From Actinobacteria bacterium IMCC26077 (lineage in GTDB: Bacteria > Actinomycetota > Actinomycetes > Nanopelagicales > Nanopelagicaceae): a stretch of 64,000 nucleotides of DNA. This document shows positions 636 to 63,115 of the stretch, in pieces. Numbering within the stretch: position 1 is the stretch's first letter; each line of letters begins with the position of its first letter. The translations under genes were made by a program, and so were the position numbers. The stretch is from assembly GCA_002284915.1 (NCBI GenBank), contig CP015606.1, positions 806,001 through 870,000 on the forward strand, in the 5' to 3' direction. The notes below the pieces were generated by a model. That model had not been told where the DNA came from, did not search any database, and saw only the letters and a list, made by a program, of their open reading frames with translations.

Positions 636-1736
636 ATGGTAGATATGGCTTCATCTGCAACGGGTGACCTCAATCTTCGGAATATTACGAAGAGTTTTGG
701 TGATTTCGTCGCGGTGGATGACCTGACTCTTACTATCCCAAAAGGTTCCTTCTTTGCGCTTCTTGGCCCATCTGGCTGCGGCAAAACCACAACCTTGCGA
801 ATGATTGCAGGGTTGGAAGAGCCAACATCAGGTTCAATCTCCATTGGCGAGTCTGATATCACACATACCAAGCCATACAAGCGTCCAGTAAATACCGTCT
901 TCCAGAATTATGCGCTCTTTCCTCATCTAACTATCTTTGAGAACGTTGCATTTGGCCTTCGACGTCGGGGGCAAAAAGATGTGAAAGATGCGGTTGAGAA
1001 GGTGTTATCGCTTGTCGAGCTTGGGCATTTGAAAGATCGAAAGCCTGGCCAACTCTCGGGTGGTCAACAGCAGCGGATTGCCGTTGCCCGAGCCATAGTG
1101 AATCGGCCAGCTTTGCTCTTACTCGACGAACCACTTGGTGCGCTCGACTTAAAGCTTCGACGCCAGATGCAGATCGAGCTTAAATGGATTCAAACCGAGG
1201 TAGGAATCACATTCGTGCATGTCACACATGATCAAGAAGAAGCTATGACGATGGCGGACACCATCGCCGTCATGAATAAAGGGCGAATAGAGCAGATGGG
1301 TTCACCAGTCGAGTTGTATGAGAATCCTGAAACTGTCTTTGTCGCAAACTTCCTCGGGCAATCAAATCTGATTGAGGGACACGTTCAATCTGATAGCGGC
1401 GCTGAGACATCGGTAGATGTTCACGGTTCGCGAATCCTCTTGCCGAGTTCGCGGAATAGAGGAAAAGAGCAGAAAGTTCTCGTCGGAGTTCGCCCAGAGA
1501 AAATCAATATTCATACCTCATCTACGAGTGCCGGCAAAAATGCGCTTGAAGGTGGCGTCGTCACTGACATCTCTTTTGTTGGAGTGAGTACGCAATATCA
1601 AGTAGAGATGCCGTGGAAGCAAGAGATAATGGTTTTTGAACAGAATGATGGCGGCGCTCCAAATATCCGCAAGGGTGATCGAGTGACTCTGACTTGGGAA
1701 CCGCATTTCACATTTGCGCTAAGTCCTGAAAGCTAG
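636..1736 (+). CDS. potA: polyamine ABC transporter ATP-binding protein
   Basis: Cytoplasmic ATPase energising uptake through the PotB/PotC-like permeases. At 366 residues it is the usual length. Walker A is GPSGCGKTT near residue 44, the ABC signature is LSGGQQQR, Walker B is LLLLDEPLGALD, and the switch histidine follows in VTHDQEEAM. The C-terminal third holds a TOBE-type regulatory domain (GVRPEKINI). The ATG at 636 lies two bases after the potD stop, so the two are translationally coupled. A second in-frame ATG at 645 is possible. It belongs to the potD-potA-potB-potC operon. Family assignment is secure; substrate is inferred from context. Confidence 0.93.
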   Translation: MVDMASSATGDLNLRNITKSFGDFVAVDDLTLTIPKGSFFALLGPSGCGKTTTLRMIAGLEEPTSGSISIGESDITHTKPYKRPVNTVFQNYALFPHLTIFENVAFGLRRRGQKDVKDAVEKVLSLVELGHLKDRKPGQLSGGQQQRIAVARAIVNRPALLLLDEPLGALDLKLRRQMQIELKWIQTEVGITFVHVTHDQEEAMTMADTIAVMNKGRIEQMGSPVELYENPETVFVANFLGQSNLIEGHVQSDSGAETSVDVHGSRILLPSSRNRGKEQKVLVGVRPEKINIHTSSTSAGKNALEGGVVTDISFVGVSTQYQVEMPWKQEIMVFEQNDGGAPNIRKGDRVTLTWEPHFTFALSPES

Positions 1737-1748
1737 TCGGGTTTATTT

Positions 1749-2657
1749 ATGGCGATTGCCCACGTAGCACCGACCCCCGGCGGCAACTCCACTCCTGAGA
1801 GCGCGAATCGCTCGGGAAGGAAGATGCCATATTTACTCCTCTTGCCAGGAATGCTGTGGTTGATCATTTTCTTTATTTTGCCGCTCGTGAATTTGGCGGA
1901 AACTTCGACTAAGACTCGCGCTGCTTCGCAAGAGACTGGCGAGTTCATCCAAACGTGGCGGTTTGCAAACTACCTTGATGCCTTCAAGGAGTATCAACCT
2001 CAATTCACCAGATCATTTATCTATGCGTTGTTAGCAACGTTGCTTGCCTTGGCAATTGCCTATCCACTGGCCTATGCAATCGCATTCAAGTCAGGAAAAT
2101 ACAAGAACATATTGCTCATCCTGGTCATTGCCCCTTTCTTCACTTCATTCTTGTTACGAACAATCGCATGGAAGCAGATCCTTGGCGCTGAAGGTCCGGT
2201 AGTTTTCGTCCTGCGTTCCCTTCATCTCATTGGTCCAGATACGACAATCACAGCTACATCCTTTGCAGTAGTCATGGGCATGACTTACAACTTCTTGCCA
2301 TTTATGACCTTGCCTATATACGCCAGCTTGGACCGAATCGACCCGCGACTTCTTGAGGCATCAGGCGACTTGTATTCAAATGGTGTGACAACCTTCCGAA
2401 AAGTCACCTTTCCACTTTCCATGCCAGGAGTTGTGGCGGGAACTTTGCTCACCTTCATTCCAGCTGCCGGCGATTACGTTAACGCGGCAATCCTTGGCAA
2501 CCCCACTACGAAGATGATTGGCAATGTCATTGATTCGAGGTTCTTCCGAATCGTTGACTATCCAACAGCGGCTGCGCTCTCATTCACACTGATGGCCACG
2601 ATTCTTATTTTGGTTACTATCTATATCCGCCGTTCAGGAACGGATGAATTGGTATGA
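1749..2657 (+). CDS. potB: polyamine ABC transporter permease, PotB type
   Basis: Inner-membrane permease half, 302 residues with about six hydrophobic helices. The first helix is near residues 28-46 (LLLLPGMLWLIIFFILPL). The cytoplasmic EAA loop that docks on the ATPase is visible as EASGDLYSNGVTTFRKVTFP. The periplasmic loop after helix 1 is long, typical of PotB-like subunits. Its last codons overlap the start of the partner permease by four bases (ATGA). It should form a heterodimer with the next product. Residue-level substrate specificity cannot be judged. Confidence 0.92.
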   Translation: MAIAHVAPTPGGNSTPESANRSGRKMPYLLLLPGMLWLIIFFILPLVNLAETSTKTRAASQETGEFIQTWRFANYLDAFKEYQPQFTRSFIYALLATLLALAIAYPLAYAIAFKSGKYKNILLILVIAPFFTSFLLRTIAWKQILGAEGPVVFVLRSLHLIGPDTTITATSFAVVMGMTYNFLPFMTLPIYASLDRIDPRLLEASGDLYSNGVTTFRKVTFPLSMPGVVAGTLLTFIPAAGDYVNAAILGNPTTKMIGNVIDSRFFRIVDYPTAAALSFTLMATILILVTIYIRRSGTDELV

Positions 2658-3454
2658 GAGAGGTCTCTCGCTGGTTCTCTCGTAACTTAATCAGAATCTA
2701 TGCGGCTCTAGCTTTTATTTACCTCTTTATACCTGTCGCTTACACAATGGCTTTCTCTTTCAACGATTCTGGAAAGCGGAATCTGATTTGGCAAGGCTTC
2801 ACTTTGAAGAACTGGGCGAATCCGTGCGGAGCGCCAGAGGTTTGCACAGCTCTTGGGAATTCACTGAAAATCGGCGTGATCTCAACTCTCATTGCAACGA
2901 TTTTAGGAACGATGATTGCCTTCGCTTTAGGACGATATAACTTCCGCGGTCGGAGTTCAACAAATTTGATCATCTTCCTCCCGATGGCAACTCCAGAGAT
3001 TGTCCTGGGCGCTTCACTCCTGGCAATGTTCCTTAATTTGGGAATCAATCCAGGCTTCTGGCCAACTGTGATTGCGCACATCATGTTCTGCATCTCTTTT
3101 GTCGTAGTAACTGTAAAAGCTCGAGTGGCAAGTCTTGATCCAAAGTTGGAAGAAGCTGCCCGAGATCTGTACGCAAACGAATACCAGACCTTTAGGCGGG
3201 TAACATTTCCGCTTGTTTTGCCTGGTATCGCAGCAGCTGCACTTCTCGCCTTCTCACTCTCCTTCGATGACTTCATCATTACAAATTTCAATTCGGGAAC
3301 AGTCACCACTTTTCCAAAGTTTGTGTGGATCTCTTCGGCGCGCGGGGTTCCGGCCCAAGCAAACGTCATCGGGTCGGCAATGTTCCTCATTGCTTTAATC
3401 ATCGTGGTAGCTGGCCAATTCGCTGGAAATGCGCGAGCGAAGCGAAACCGCTAG
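2654..3454 (+). CDS. potC: polyamine ABC transporter permease, PotC type
   Basis: Second permease subunit, 266 residues with six predicted membrane helices. Its EAA loop is EAARDLYANEYQTFRRVTFP, nearly the same as in the preceding permease. The helix pair LIIFLPMATPEIVLGASLL is typical of PotC. It closes the transporter operon; 129 bp with strong RNA structure separate it from the FAD oxidase gene. A 220-codon open frame exists on the opposite strand inside this gene but has no family features and was not accepted. Confidence 0.92.
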   Translation: MREVSRWFSRNLIRIYAALAFIYLFIPVAYTMAFSFNDSGKRNLIWQGFTLKNWANPCGAPEVCTALGNSLKIGVISTLIATILGTMIAFALGRYNFRGRSSTNLIIFLPMATPEIVLGASLLAMFLNLGINPGFWPTVIAHIMFCISFVVVTVKARVASLDPKLEEAARDLYANEYQTFRRVTFPLVLPGIAAAALLAFSLSFDDFIITNFNSGTVTTFPKFVWISSARGVPAQANVIGSAMFLIALIIVVAGQFAGNARAKRNR

Positions 3455-3468
3455 ACTCTTGCTCGTAG

Positions 3469-3577
3469 CCATTACGAAGAACCAATCGAAACTGGTTGGG
3501 GTAATGGGGTAGGACTCCGGAGGACCCGGGCCCGCTGTAAGTAGAAGTTAAGGGGTGAATCCGGCTTGTAGCCGGAT
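3469..3577 (+). promoter_or_regulatory. structured RNA leader before the FAD oxidase gene
   Basis: Two clear helices are visible in this gap. First, CCATTAC (3469-3475) pairs with GTAATGG (3501-3507) and encloses AACCA (3480-3484) pairing with TGGTT (3493-3497). Second, ATCCGGC (3559-3565) pairs with GCCGGAT (3571-3577) over the loop TTGTA. The middle segment is G/C rich and can fold in more than one way. The Shine-Dalgarno AAGGGG (3550-3555) lies before the second hairpin and the ATG (3584) six bases after it. I could not match it to a riboswitch class I know. Confidence 0.5.
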
Positions 3578-3583
3578 ATATCG

Positions 3584-4996
3584 ATGGCCACCATCGACCC
3601 ACGAATCGTTCGCCACCTCAAAGATGCACAGCCTGATCTCTATTGGCTTGATGCTGATCCGCTGGAACCGAGCGCACACTCAGCTCTAGTTGGTGAAATT
3701 GAGGTAGACCTCGCAATTGTCGGCGCCGGATATACCGGTCTCTGGACTGCGCTCTTGGCGAAGGAGAAACATCCTGATTGGCGCGTAGTAATCATTGAAA
3801 TGCGTGAGACTGGCGCCGGTGCATCGGGACGTAATGGTGGTTTCTGCAACTATTCGTTGACACATGGTTGGACTAACGGCAAACGTCGTTTTCCCGATGA
3901 GATGGAAGTGATCTCTCGCCTCGGACGTGAGAATTTGGAAGCGATCGAAGAGACGATTAAGAAGTACAACATCCAATGTAACTGGGAGTGGACCGGTGAA
4001 TTGCGAGTTGCCATCGAGCCATGGCAGCTCGAAGGCATGCGCGAAGAGGCTGAGGAACGGAACCGAATCGGCGATGATGTTGAATTCCTCGACAAAGAAG
4101 CGATTCAAGCTCGAGTACATTCGCCAATCTACGAAGGTGGATTATTCGATCACGATGGCACTGCTTTAGTTGATCCTGCTCGTTTGGTCTGGGGATTAGA
4201 GAAAGCCTGCCTTTCGTTAGGCGTCGAAATTTATGAGAATTCTCAAGTGCAGTGGCTAGAAAATCTGCACGATGGAGTAGTGCTGCACACCGCATATGGA
4301 TTTGCGAAGGCAAAGAAAGTTGCGTTGGCTACAAACGTCTTTCCAACGCTTCAGAAGAATTTACGGAAATATGTAGTTCCAGTCTACGACTATCAAATTG
4401 TCACCGAGCCATTGACCCCTGAGCAGTTAAAGAGCATCGGTTGGAGTGAGCGTGAAGGTATCTCAGATTCTGGCCATCAATTCCACTATTACCGCCTGAC
4501 GGACGATAACTGCATCGTGTGGGGTGGATGGGATGCGATCTATAACTTCCGTGGTCGAGTTGCACGTGAATACGAGTTCCGTCCTGAGACATATGTGAAA
4601 TTAGTTGATCACTTCCTCAAAACATTCCCGCAATTAGAGGGAATCAAATTCACCCACGCATGGGGAGGCGCTATTGATACCTGCACTCGATTCTCGCCTT
4701 TCTGGAGCCTTTCGAAAGATAAACGAGTGGCGAGCGTTTTGGGATATACCGGACTTGGTGTGGCTTCCACGCGTTTCGGTGCACAAGTGATGCTCGATCT
4801 CTTGGATGGGGAAGATAATGAGCGGACCCGTTTGACGATGGTTAAGAGCAAGCCATTAGCCTTTCCGCCGGAACCATTCCGATTCTTTTTCATCCAGATC
4901 ACCCGCTGGTCTATCAATAAAGCTGATGAGAATGGCGGTAAACGAAATATCTGGCTACGTACCCTCGACCGTCTTGGCTTGGGCTTTGATTCATAA
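3584..4996 (+). CDS. FAD-dependent amine oxidoreductase (PuuB/OrdL-like, DAO family)
   Basis: Flavoenzyme of the D-amino-acid-oxidase superfamily, 470 residues. The dinucleotide-binding motif is AIVGAGYTGLWTALLAKE near residues 45-62, followed by the family's ASGRNGGFCNY motif. The C-terminal FAD-contact segment is GYTGLGVASTRFGAQVMLDL. Such proteins oxidise gamma-glutamylputrescine, related amines or N-methyl amino acids, giving an aldehyde, ammonia or amine, and peroxide. Placement after the potABCD-type importer and before an agmatinase-family gene suggests polyamine catabolism. No gamma-glutamylputrescine synthetase is in the window, so the exact substrate is open. The start is set by the conserved N-terminus; the ribosome-binding site is unusual (see the leader entry). 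Confidence 0.85.
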   Translation: MATIDPRIVRHLKDAQPDLYWLDADPLEPSAHSALVGEIEVDLAIVGAGYTGLWTALLAKEKHPDWRVVIIEMRETGAGASGRNGGFCNYSLTHGWTNGKRRFPDEMEVISRLGRENLEAIEETIKKYNIQCNWEWTGELRVAIEPWQLEGMREEAEERNRIGDDVEFLDKEAIQARVHSPIYEGGLFDHDGTALVDPARLVWGLEKACLSLGVEIYENSQVQWLENLHDGVVLHTAYGFAKAKKVALATNVFPTLQKNLRKYVVPVYDYQIVTEPLTPEQLKSIGWSEREGISDSGHQFHYYRLTDDNCIVWGGWDAIYNFRGRVAREYEFRPETYVKLVDHFLKTFPQLEGIKFTHAWGGAIDTCTRFSPFWSLSKDKRVASVLGYTGLGVASTRFGAQVMLDLLDGEDNERTRLTMVKSKPLAFPPEPFRFFFIQITRWSINKADENGGKRNIWLRTLDRLGLGFDS

Positions 4997-5009: not shown

Positions 5010-6008
5010 ATGGCAAATCATGGAAATCTCTATGGACCAGATTTCACTTTCCTTGGGATTGCGCGCTGCGATCTTGACGATCCACAGAGTTACCAAGGAT
5101 TAGATGTCGTGATCGTGGGCGCGCCGGTTGATAGCGGCACCTCACATCGCTCAGGCGCAAAGTTCGGTCCCCAAGCGATTCGAATGGGCGACTACCTCCC
5201 GCATGATGGTGAGCGACCGCATTTAGCGCTGCGTGTTGATGCCTTGCAAGAGTTGAAGATTGCAGATGCCGGCGATCTGATGATGGCGCCAGGAAATCTC
5301 GAAGATTCATTGGCCTTACTCCGAAAAGCTACCGAAAAGATTTCCCGCGCAGGTGCAATCGCAGTAGTGCTCGGAGGAGATCACTCCATTGCATCTGCCG
5401 ACGTTGCTGGCATTGCCGATCATCGTGGTAAGGGCAAGATCTCGATGATTCACTTTGATGCCCACGCGGATACGGGAGATTTACAGATGGGTGCCCTCGT
5501 GGGCCATGGCACTCCGATGCGCCGGTTAATCGAGGCCGGTGCGGTTCGCGGTGATCGATTCCTGCAGTTGGGTTTACGTGGATACTGGCCCAATGGTGCG
5601 ACGCTCGATTGGATGCGCGATCAGGGAATGCGCTCATACGAGATGACTGAGATTCATCATCGCGGTTTAACTGCAGTCCTTGATGAATCCTTTGTCACGC
5701 TCACCGATGGTTGCGATGGCGTTTTCCTCTCAGTAGATATCGATGTCGTCGATCCTGGAATGGCTCCTGGCACCGGAACGCCAGAACCAGGTGGCATGAC
5801 TAGTAGGGAGTTGCTGGAAGCAGTTCGTCGCATCTGCCTAGAACTTCCGGTAGTTGGTATCGATGTCGTAGAGGTCGCGCCGCCCTTTGATTCTGCAGAT
5901 ATCACCGCGATTCTCGCTAACCGGGTCGTCTTGGAAGCGTTGAGCGCTATCGCCAAACGAAAGAGCGGCAAGCCCTATTCGCCAACGCAAAATCTTCTCG
6001 ATCGATAG
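5010..6008 (+). CDS. speB: agmatinase-family ureohydrolase
   Basis: Dinuclear-metal hydrolase of the arginase/agmatinase family, 332 residues. The metal-ligand motifs are all present: LGGDHSIA near residue 120, HFDAHADTG near 148, and SVDIDVVDPGMAPGTGTPEP near 240. These enzymes release urea from agmatine, guanidinobutyrate, guanidinopropionate or related compounds; a subgroup acts on free guanidine. The start ATG lies 13 bp after the oxidase stop, so the two genes are co-transcribed. The PGTGTPEPGG loop and the amine-uptake context fit agmatinase or guanidinobutyrase. The symbol is given for the family, not proven for the substrate. It converges on the aminotransferase gene with only six bases between stops. 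Confidence 0.85.
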   Translation: MANHGNLYGPDFTFLGIARCDLDDPQSYQGLDVVIVGAPVDSGTSHRSGAKFGPQAIRMGDYLPHDGERPHLALRVDALQELKIADAGDLMMAPGNLEDSLALLRKATEKISRAGAIAVVLGGDHSIASADVAGIADHRGKGKISMIHFDAHADTGDLQMGALVGHGTPMRRLIEAGAVRGDRFLQLGLRGYWPNGATLDWMRDQGMRSYEMTEIHHRGLTAVLDESFVTLTDGCDGVFLSVDIDVVDPGMAPGTGTPEPGGMTSRELLEAVRRICLELPVVGIDVVEVAPPFDSADITAILANRVVLEALSAIAKRKSGKPYSPTQNLLDR

Positions 6009-6014
6009 CGAGAT

Positions 6015-7352
6015 TTACAACGCTGCTAGCGCCTCATCAAGAATCGAGAGCGCTTCGCGAAGGAGCTGCTCTGGCATCACCAATGGTGGCAAGAATCTGA
6101 TTACATTGCTGTAAGTGCCTGCAGTCAGGAGTAATACCCCTTTGCTCTGGCAATACTTCACAATCGCCTGCATCGCCGCTGGATTTGGTTCGGTGGTACC
6201 CGGAATTACTAATTCAATCGCTTGCATAGCACCACGGCCACGAACCTCACCGATGACTGGATACTTAGCCGCCATCGCGCCCAGCTCTGCGACCATGATT
6301 GCGCCGATTTCACGAGCCCGCTCCACAAGATTCTCACGCTCAATCGTCTCAATCGCACCCAGTGCAGCGGCGCACGAGATTGGTGAACCGCCAAACGTGC
6401 CACCTAATCCACTTAAGTGGACGCTATCCATGACTTCTGCGCGCCCAGTGAGTCCAGCAAGCGGTAAGCCACCTGCAATTCCCTTTGCGGTCGTGATCAA
6501 ATCTGGGATTACCCCTTCATCGTCGCAACCGAACATCTCACCGGTGCGGGCGAAACCAGTCTGCACCTCATCGGCAACAAAGAGCGCACCATTATCTTTT
6601 GCTAACTTCGCTAACCCTGGGAGGAACCCCTTCGGCGGCACGATGAATCCACCTTCACCTTGGATTGGCTCAATGACAATCGCCGCGACATTCTGGAAGC
6701 CAATCTCTTTTTCAATCTTATGCGAGATGAGATCTAGCGCTTGCGCCGCGCACTCTGCAGGATCACCTAACCAACGAAATGGATAGGCCATAGGCATCCG
6801 ATAAATCTCGGGCGCAAAGGGTCCAAAGCCCTCTTTATATGGCATGTTCTTAGCAGTCATGCCCATGGTGAGATTGGTTCGACCGTGGTAACCGTGTTCG
6901 AAGACGATCACCGCGCTGCGCTTGGTGAAGACGCGCGCAACTTTAATGGCATTCTCAACTGCTTCAGCGCCAGAGTTGAAGAGCGCTGACTTCTTCTTAT
7001 GTTTACCTGGAGTGAGGCGATTGAGCGCCTCACACACATCGACATACCCTTGGTAAGGCGCGACCATGAAACAGGTATGGGTGAAAGCATGAACTTGTTC
7101 GACGACACGGTCAATCACTAGGTCTGCCGAGTTTCCCACGTTGACTACGGCAATTCCGGCGCCCATATCGATGATCGAGTTCCCATCAACATCGACGATC
7201 ACGCCACCGCCAGCTTCCTTCACGAAGACTGGGATAGCCATACCCAAAGCTGCGCTAACCGCATCGCTTCGTCGAGCGATTAATTCTTGGGACTTCGGTC
7301 CTGGAATAGCAGTTTTAACCACTCGTTGTTGCGGAATCTCTCTGCGAGGCAT
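6015..7352 (-). CDS. gabT: 4-aminobutyrate aminotransferase family, PLP enzyme
   Basis: Class-III pyridoxal-phosphate aminotransferase of 445 residues. Visible motifs are the phosphate-binding NSGAEAVENAIKVAR, the substrate-side HGYHGRTNLTMGMT, the PLP aspartate in LFVADEVQTGFARTG, and the Schiff-base lysine in TTAKGIAGGLPLAGL. GabT converts 4-aminobutyrate plus 2-oxoglutarate to succinate semialdehyde plus glutamate, the end step of putrescine and guanidinobutyrate breakdown. That matches the oxidase and ureohydrolase genes converging on it. Related enzymes act on 5-aminovalerate or putrescine, so the substrate is inferred. A TACCCT hexamer six bases before the ATG and no Shine-Dalgarno suggest a leaderless mRNA separate from the sugar kinase gene upstream. 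Confidence 0.9.
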   Translation of the reverse strand: MPRREIPQQRVVKTAIPGPKSQELIARRSDAVSAALGMAIPVFVKEAGGGVIVDVDGNSIIDMGAGIAVVNVGNSADLVIDRVVEQVHAFTHTCFMVAPYQGYVDVCEALNRLTPGKHKKKSALFNSGAEAVENAIKVARVFTKRSAVIVFEHGYHGRTNLTMGMTAKNMPYKEGFGPFAPEIYRMPMAYPFRWLGDPAECAAQALDLISHKIEKEIGFQNVAAIVIEPIQGEGGFIVPPKGFLPGLAKLAKDNGALFVADEVQTGFARTGEMFGCDDEGVIPDLITTAKGIAGGLPLAGLTGRAEVMDSVHLSGLGGTFGGSPISCAAALGAIETIERENLVERAREIGAIMVAELGAMAAKYPVIGEVRGRGAMQAIELVIPGTTEPNPAAMQAIVKYCQSKGVLLLTAGTYSNVIRFLPPLVMPEQLLREALSILDEALAAL

Positions 7353-22038: not shown

Positions 22039-22131
22039 CAAAAAAAACAACAAGCGCGAGAACTCCGCTCGATAGGTTGGGGTCCTCGGTAGTGGCTCTC
22101 GGATATTTATGCCGACAGCTTCGATCGATGA

Positions 22132-22186
22132 TCTCCATCGCAGATAGCTAACGCTCGCGAGATATGGAGACGACCCATGTCGGGTC
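22132..22186 (+). promoter_or_regulatory. structured pnp translation-initiation region
   Basis: TCTCCAT (22132-22138) is complementary to ATGGAGA (22164-22170), which contains the pnp Shine-Dalgarno. Next to it, GACCC (22172-22176) pairs with GGGTC (22182-22186), putting the start codon ATG (22177-22179) in a five-base loop. PNPase controls its own mRNA in other bacteria through leader cleavage; these helices are candidate targets. Confidence 0.45.
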
Positions 22187-62999: not shown

Positions 63000-63115
63000 G
63001 GTCATGAGTTCCAGTTGTAAGCCCCGGCTAACTGGACGGCAACCCTCCGCCGCGGTGGGGTGCTCCGGGTGAAGACCAGGTCGTTACGAAAGTCGTAGCG
63101 GCAAGCGCGGGTATC
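63000..63115 (+). ncRNA. SAM-IV riboswitch
   Basis: S-adenosylmethionine-sensing leader of the actinobacterial SAM-IV class. P1 pairs GGTC (63000-63003) with GACC (63074-63077). P2 pairs CCAGTT (63011-63016) with AACTGG (63030-63035). The internal loop GCCCCGG (63021-63027) can form the pseudoknot with CTCCGGG (63063-63069), and the core ACGGCAACCCTCC and GGTGGGGTGCTCC segments are present. Downstream bases to about 63115 would form the extra SAM-IV helices. It sits before metY, its known target class. High SAM should lower metY expression. Confidence 0.88.

Follow-up and report, generated by a model that had tools for sequence, protein, structure and literature searches.

The 64,000-nt window analyzed here (positions 806,001 to 870,000 of contig CP015606.1, Actinobacteria bacterium IMCC26077) carries at 3584-4996 a gene for an FAD-dependent oxidoreductase (Pfam DAO), referred to below as the oxidase; all coordinates are those of the window, on the forward strand unless stated otherwise. 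A region of about 130 nt upstream of this gene is conserved in many of the gene's relatives and, on comparative evidence, the stretch 3469-3600 is a conserved structured RNA that comprises helices P1-P3, a variable linker, a Shine-Dalgarno sequence, hairpin P4 and two pairings, P5 and P6, that involve the beginning of the gene itself. The initial annotation of the window, made from the letters only, had described the 3' part of this region, in which AAGGGG (3550-3555) is followed by the perfect hairpin ATCCGGC-TTGTA-GCCGGAT (P4, 3559-3577; a 7-bp stem with a 5-nt loop) and by the ATG at 3584, and the larger conserved RNA around the hairpin was absent from it. The distances that it gave, 28 nt from AAGGGG to the ATG and 9 nt when the hairpin is left out, were exact when the coordinates were re-read. 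It had proposed that the hairpin sets the spacing between the two signals, that folding of the hairpin would switch translation on and that this would be the reverse of usual sequestration.

Helices were drawn by hand on 17 sequences, from which a covariance model was built and used for whole-genome searches. This first model covers the full element, including the Shine-Dalgarno sequence and P4, and a second model consists of P1-P3 alone. The resulting alignment (A3) holds 97 rows from 98 sources, ten of which are the window and contigs of gene relatives, with some of these contigs duplicated in later loci. Covariation in P1-P3 was assessed on a MAFFT alignment made independently of the structure, in which 42 rows (A5) were left after dropping those more than 93% identical. 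P1 (3469-3475 with 3501-3507) changes on both sides in six of its seven pairs, with 96.3% of cells paired, and P2, which lies inside P1 (3482-3487 with 3494-3499), does so in all six, with 94.4% paired; between them is an internal loop of 6 nt and 1 nt (GAAGAA/G). Two other evaluations of P1 and P2 gave comparable results. In the outer helix of P3 (3508-3513 with 3531-3536), three of the six pairs are double-changed, 84.1% of cells are paired and one pair is open in 25 of the 42 sequences, while the inner helix (CCGG 3517-3520 with CCGG 3526-3529, loop AGGAC) is invariant. The P3 core, within 3508-3536, is the near-invariant UCCGGAGGACCCGGG, with one loop substitution, in L051. Almost invariant GGAGG in P3 (3519-3523) also matches 16S CCUCC perfectly about 60 nt 5' of the start, and is possibly a standby or decoy site. 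The linker from P3 to the Shine-Dalgarno sequence (3537-3551) is variable in A3. Taken over P1-P3, 93.3% of cells are paired and 15 of 23 pairs are double-changed (shuffle mean 11.1, equaled in 2 of 500 shuffles), and the covariation score is 0.455 as opposed to 0.207 in shuffles, none of 500 of which equal it, and to a maximum of 0.112 in slid controls. For the whole model, 16 of 29 pairs are double-changed among 88 distinct rows, in an alignment that was itself fitted to the model. Covariation is silent at inner P3 and at the P4 core because both are invariant.

At a threshold of E up to 0.1, the full model matched 87 of 201 genomes of the family, spanning 10 of 17 genera. Two of these matches are weak: that in G217 because the upstream part is masked (in its leader, L128, the P1-P3 stretch consists of N only), and that in G365 (L129), a shortened form with no match at 0.01. 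The oxidase gene was found by a separate protein search in 99 of the 201 genomes, such that 85 hold gene and element, 14 the gene alone and two (G237, G271) the element alone; in these last two, the matching contig stops within the element or shortly past its start codon. In the order sample, 90 of 201 genomes match, and the listed matches belong to the same family and overlap the first sample. All 15 matching genomes among the 296 of the class sample are again of this family. The phylum sample yielded two of 396, namely the window's genome and a 25-bit match, which was judged a chance one when the stretch was inspected, without a formal test. With the P1-P3 model, 64 of 151 family genomes matched, at 66 places that all coincide with full-model places, and five of 336 phylum genomes did so, these being the window's genome and four matches at 24-31 bits that we rejected, the best one as it sits within a reading frame and the other three by alignment only. 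Across the 151 family genomes, no extra copies at other genes were found; where a genome has two places, as two do, these lie on separate contigs and both are full-model places. The viral contigs searched held no relative of the oxidase gene. An early pattern search had returned 8 of 197 genomes, and two of its leaders (L033, L040) were dropped as unlike the element. As far as sampled, the element is thus found in one freshwater actinobacterial family, attached to one gene. Candidatus Nanopelagicaceae and Candidatus Planktophila, of the acI lineage, are among the names that relatives bear. One contig labeled Bifidobacterium breve (L009) carries the element with a 93% identical gene and is probably a mislabeled acI genome.

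The 3' end of 16S rRNA, located in the same genome, is GGATCACCTCCTTTCT, of which UCACCUC complements GGGGUGA. Because the 16S gene ends in this way, the Shine-Dalgarno sequence is better read as GGGGUGA(U), with GGGGUGA at 3552-3558, than as AAGGGG; it forms seven contiguous pairs with 16S rRNA in the window and eight in relatives with GGGGUGAU or GAGGUGAU. In 94 of 97 rows, the start (ATG, in one case GTG) shares the reading frame of the homologue's residue 1, and the leader lies directly 5' of that homologue; of the remainder, two reach the contig end and one has an altered N-terminus. Judging by these alignments, ATG 3584 is the correct start. A wrong start codon was considered and rejected, as the in-frame TTG at 3566, within the hairpin, runs immediately into TAG and as the N-terminus is conserved. 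Both stem and spacing, whose conservation in homologous leaders the initial annotation had named as a check, are kept in all 96 rows that reach the start (L127 stops at the contig end): G[GA]GGTG and P4 are present in each, with 25-29 nt from the motif to the start, 27 nt in 70 rows. The intervening hairpin spans 13-23 nt, and the spacing that excludes it is 8-13 nt in 86 rows and 4 nt in the other ten, where the script prolonged the stem through weak pairs. The P4 core, CCGG with CCGG, is invariant, the loop-closing pair is U-G, C-G, U-A or G-C, and the loops vary while the stem is constant. Ensemble folds were calculated for 85 distinct rows (without L126, L127 and L128), each with 30 nt of coding sequence. 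On its own, the stretch from Shine-Dalgarno sequence to AUG has a folding energy between -7.7 and -12.9 kcal/mol in every one of the 85 leaders, and 68 of the 85 whole-leader folds have P4 as their main state; P4 therefore looks like a fixed spacer, and the proposal that its folding is an on-switch found no support.

Within 464 kb of the genome, 778 candidate ATG or GTG starts were counted, crudely, since several candidates were counted per reading frame. Six of these have G[GA]GGTG 22-32 nt upstream, and the start considered here is the sole one among them with an intervening hairpin. In the same crude count, a Shine-Dalgarno-like motif lies close to just 63 of the 778, which suggests that this lineage often initiates without one.

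Several homologous genes have leaders that lack part or all of the element. In seven of them (L010-L013, L200, L201, L208), P1-P3 is missing, P6 is weakened and GAGGUGAU, a perfect 16S match, is retained together with a 7-bp P4 of the type TTTCCGG..CCGGAAA; the three of known genus all come from one genus. Two other leaders (L093, L094) have P1-P3 present, yet their Shine-Dalgarno sequence is GAGGUGAU and their P4 is of this same type, and they are possible intermediates. Eight homologue leaders have neither P1-P3 nor P4. Four of these carry a motif 5-8 nt 5' of the start, namely GGAG (L195), GGGG (L197), AAGGA (L206) and GGAG (L207), the start position of L196 is ambiguous and the other three are considered below. 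Such a pattern among natural variants matches the prediction for a bridging hairpin, although it has to be taken into account that the events are few, that the species are related and that some leaders perhaps never had the element. A second oxidase, 42-44% identical and carried by four genomes (L209-L212), begins right at the stop codon of the preceding gene and has no such leader.

In P5, CGAUGG (3582-3587), which contains the start codon, can pair with CCAUCG (3591-3596), and in P6, GGGU of the Shine-Dalgarno sequence (3553-3556) can pair with ACCC in codons 5-6 (3597-3600), so that P6 closes a three-way junction of which P4 and P5 are the other arms. When 3550-3606 of the window is folded alone, this junction is the minimum-energy structure (-24.3 kcal/mol). 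Pairs were counted in 77 distinct leaders, namely 71 and, tallied apart, six of the CAGCCC genus. The first five pairs of P5 are intact in 70 of the 71, and its sixth is G-C in 43, U-A in 12, G-U in one and non-standard in 15. The P6 partner of GGGU is ACCC, AUCC or ACUC, with at least four contiguous pairs in 68 of the 71 and in all six leaders of the P5-less CAGCCC genus. In the ensemble folds, the mean unpaired fraction is 0.19 for the Shine-Dalgarno sequence and 0.05 for the AUG, and the main partners of the former are the bases right after P4 (up to 36 of 85 leaders) and gene nt +14 to +18 (up to 31 of 85).

Codon choice at the start of the gene agrees with these pairings. All 71 distinct starts outside the CAGCCC genus have C as the third base of codon 3, regardless of the amino acid. 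Among the 86 distinct starts of the codon table, codon 3 is ACC in 37/37, GAC in 17/17 and AAC in 15/15, against same-gene backgrounds of 28, 21 and 33%, respectively, Ile at codon 4 is ATC in 78 of 85 cases against a background of 30%, and Asp at codon 5 is GAC in 69 of 78 against 21%. Synonymous recodings also fold less stably than the native starts, for which the mean z is -2.42 and 66 of 67 values are lower than -1, in a comparison over 67 rows (A4) without the CAGCCC rows, L126, L127, L128 and duplicates. For reference, we used 14 element-free leaders from gene-only genomes and contigs of gene relatives. Left out of this set were L196 and L207 (both with a divergent N-terminus), L202 (insertion at the N-terminus and degraded Shine-Dalgarno sequence), L199 (the contig stops inside the element, as in L014), L209-L212 (paralogues, about 43% identical), L008 and L017 (which duplicate the contigs of L197 and L208) and G266 (gene incomplete). 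In the reference set, the third base of codon 3 is C in 10 of 14 (Fisher p 0.0005 against 71 of 71), and at least four P6 pairs are found in one of the ten leaders that hold the motif, although that motif may not be a real Shine-Dalgarno sequence in L195 and L204. From the wobble-C codon use, we argue that the pairing of the start in P5 and P6 is selected. The view that the hairpin represents the reverse of usual sequestration was thus incomplete, as the conserved sequence also permits sequestration, of the AUG in P5 and of the Shine-Dalgarno sequence with codons 5-6.

Taken together, the comparisons make it somewhat probable, in our judgment, that the leader is an orphan riboswitch-like candidate, in which P1-P3 would be the sensor, P4 a lasting spacer within a split ribosome-binding site and P5 with P6 the closed state. 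P4 would fold aside permanently, such that a Shine-Dalgarno sequence 27 nt upstream could act at an ordinary distance, while P5 and P6 jointly would hide the start codon and the Shine-Dalgarno sequence. P1-P3, as a putative sensor, would most likely be a riboswitch aptamer for a metabolite of an amine pathway, biasing the start region toward either the closed junction or the open split site. What would be expected of a T4-type split site, a strong Shine-Dalgarno sequence past normal spacing and a stable intervening hairpin, is found here. Of what would be expected of a riboswitch, the leader of this metabolic gene has a covarying conserved structure and a conserved core; of the mutually exclusive folds, the closed one is backed by the codon and folding data, and a conserved competing pairing between P1-P3 and the start did not show. 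A more specific proposal is possible, and we advance it only tentatively: this may be a riboswitch class that is new, is specific to the lineage and responds to a metabolite of the polyamine pathway, with a hairpin-bridged split site and a coding-sequence clamp as its expression platform, in which P4 is a fixed hinge that lets P6 and P5 hide both signals and opening would instantly give the correct spacing.

Several observations weigh against a sensor-controlled split site and should be considered when referring to the counts above. No conserved alternative pairing between P1-P3 and the start emerged, so that the link from sensor to start is not visible in the sequence, and this is the main gap. 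An anti-Shine-Dalgarno role of P3 (ACUCC or ACCC with GGGGU) is possible in nearly all leaders, but the ensemble favors partners in the coding sequence or after P4; as the letters hardly vary, this pairing is no more than a possibility. Single-sequence folds of whole leaders give P1 and P2 as the main state in 65 of 85 each, inner P3 in 67 and outer P3 in just 28, with P4 limited to the 68 mentioned; the window's own P2 is weakly predicted (0.26). Of the two main partners of the Shine-Dalgarno sequence, P6 occurs in roughly a third of the 85, and the other lies just after P4. Formal covariation in P5 and P6 (with P4 included) is weak, 0.107 against 0.094 in shuffles and equaled by 5 of 500, with two double-changed pairs against 2.8 in shuffles, because the letters hardly vary, and in P4 covariation support is limited to the stem edge. 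The first five pairs of P5 are also present in 6 of the 14 element-free homologues, so P5 holds only partly as element-specific proof. Some natural variants fit poorly, since L198 has GGGGTG and P6 but a weakened P4, L202 has P4 but a degraded Shine-Dalgarno sequence, and L203, L204 and L205 lack the element as well as any evident Shine-Dalgarno sequence. The rows are phylogenetically nested (10 genera) and the p-values disregard kinship. The presence of P4 and the Shine-Dalgarno sequence in all rows is partly by construction, as the search model holds both, which is offset by the 66 places of the P1-P3 model all belonging to full-model places. Finally, the raw spacing varies no more than the hairpin-excluded one; spacing alone is therefore no proof of shortening, and we dropped its conservation as non-discriminating. 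The idea that the hairpin sets the spacing keeps its other supports, namely the position of P4 between a strong Shine-Dalgarno sequence and the start in every row, the seven shortened leaders, the four P4-less homologues and the T4 precedent discussed below.

The tie of the element to one gene across differing neighborhoods, and in one family only, would also be expected under autogenous control, in which the FAD oxidase or another protein binds P1-P3 and thereby sets translation. We consider this unlikely, as the near-invariant core is equally expected of an aptamer and as homologues without the element exist; the DAO family, moreover, is not known as RNA-binding. The CAGCCC genus, which lacks P5 and carries GGAG 7 nt from the AUG in the 3' arm of P4, stands against the split site and raises the reverse relation, in which P4 is repressive, its 3' arm hides a weak Shine-Dalgarno sequence at normal spacing (GGA, or GGAG in this one genus) and GGGGUGA is a standby or regulatory site. 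Many other leaders have GGA 7 nt from the AUG; however, the L015, L004 and L110 groups have merely GG(C/U) there, and the upstream 16S match is kept in 96 of 96 start-reaching rows, including the perfect GAGGUGAU variant, so that we hold such a hidden site to be quite improbable. A constitutive or temperature-sensing start, at which P5 and P6 melt and P1-P3 protects the message or acts as a standby site by its GGAGG, receives about the same low expectation: P5 and P6 are indeed short clamps on the AUG and the Shine-Dalgarno sequence, and the P3 motif matches 16S CCUCC, but P1-P3 is strongly conserved and covaries, and thermometers or mRNA protectors usually need less conservation than this. 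A chance hairpin without function is hardly credible even though perfect 7-bp hairpins occur in the 64-kb window at chance frequency (35, as compared to 19-42 in five shuffles), since P4 is conserved in all 96 start-reaching rows and in the seven shortened leaders.

A leader with a sensor domain and a hairpin-bridged start, as we favor, has partial counterparts among known systems. Genes 25 and 38 of phage T4 are proven split sites, in which a hairpin shortens the spacing from 27 to 11 nt and from 22 to 5 nt, respectively (PMC3014915). The element resembles them in its remote Shine-Dalgarno sequence with an intervening hairpin, at similar distances, both raw (27 nt in 70 of the 96 rows) and hairpin-excluded (8-13 nt in 86 of them). 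It differs in its location on a bacterial chromosome, in the large conserved RNA domain upstream and in the possible clamps on the AUG and the Shine-Dalgarno sequence; stem-mutation data belong to T4, whereas the present element is known from sequence comparison. Escherichia coli thrS also has a split ribosome-binding site, where the ribosome accommodates a hairpin without unfolding it (PMC3936740). We liken the two by description only. In thrS, control is exerted by binding of threonyl-tRNA synthetase and the hairpin lies 5' of the Shine-Dalgarno sequence, unlike here. With translational riboswitches, the leader shares a conserved covarying domain, a near-invariant core, a metabolic gene and a start that can be closed, but its sequestration employs coding sequence, a spacer hairpin parts the Shine-Dalgarno sequence from the AUG and ligand binding and switching are only putative. 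The spermidine riboswitch is a four-stem SAM-I variant that responds to spermidine by transcription termination (PMC10853860). Members with upstream pot genes share its polyamine-related gene context; however, no SAM-I match was found in the window, the region or ten relatives, and the order of helices differs.

No known Rfam riboswitch accounts for the element, as no family reaches its gathering threshold there. In the window, Rfam 15 at gathering threshold gave only a SAM-IV riboswitch (63000-63113, 111.6 bits) and an Actino-pnp RNA (22078-22136, 57.8 bits). Region 3400-3700, searched at E up to 10, gave only gut-2 (12.7 bits against a threshold of 39.8, overlapping P1-P2) and a small nucleolar RNA, and in ten relatives at E up to 0.5 the only matches were three in L099, none of them within the element. 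Among titles and the beginnings of abstracts, with subscription papers, preprints and supplements outside this scope, nothing on acI or polyamine riboswitches, structured-RNA surveys, hairpins between Shine-Dalgarno sequence and start, or start sequestration was recognized as the element. In the main text of one large survey, a term search found no occurrence of the lineage and pathway words (PMC11109978), and an acI genome paper searched models of thiamine, FMN, cobalamin and AdoCbl riboswitches only (PMC5301498). The element is apparently uncatalogued.

As for the surroundings, potA-, potB- and potC-like genes of a polyamine-type ABC transporter precede the element (636-3454); a potA subfamily model scores above its NCBIfam cut-off, while PotB and PotC are best matches below theirs. 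Downstream, and in the same direction as the oxidase gene, lies an agmatinase/ureohydrolase gene (5010-6008; TIGR01230 above cut-off, Pfam Arginase), and a 4-aminobutyrate transaminase gene follows on the reverse strand (6015-7352), convergent with the oxidase-agmatinase pair, a position that fits a cluster for catabolism of amines to 4-aminobutyrate (GABA). The oxidase itself scores below every NCBIfam cut-off and is distantly similar to structures of L-amino acid deaminase. Its substrate is probably an amine, and we infer a polyamine role from the neighboring genes. As in the window, potC is upstream of the element in 71 of 97 rows. In the other 26 rows, potC was not found within the DNA examined, in at least two because the contig stops, and the few such neighborhoods that were scanned showed unrelated genes; it is therefore the oxidase gene, rather than the transporter, that the element accompanies.

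The synonymous-codon signature at the start of this gene offers a clean, testable case of RNA structure constraining coding sequence, and the wide separation of the two initiation signals suggests that annotation tools that require a Shine-Dalgarno sequence near the start may miss structured spacers. If the proposed mechanism is true, a bacterial chromosome would employ a hairpin-bridged split site of the T4 type as a conserved expression platform. It would also add an orphan riboswitch-like class to a bacterial lineage that is abundant in fresh water and for which the use of polyamines has been predicted (PMC5574706).

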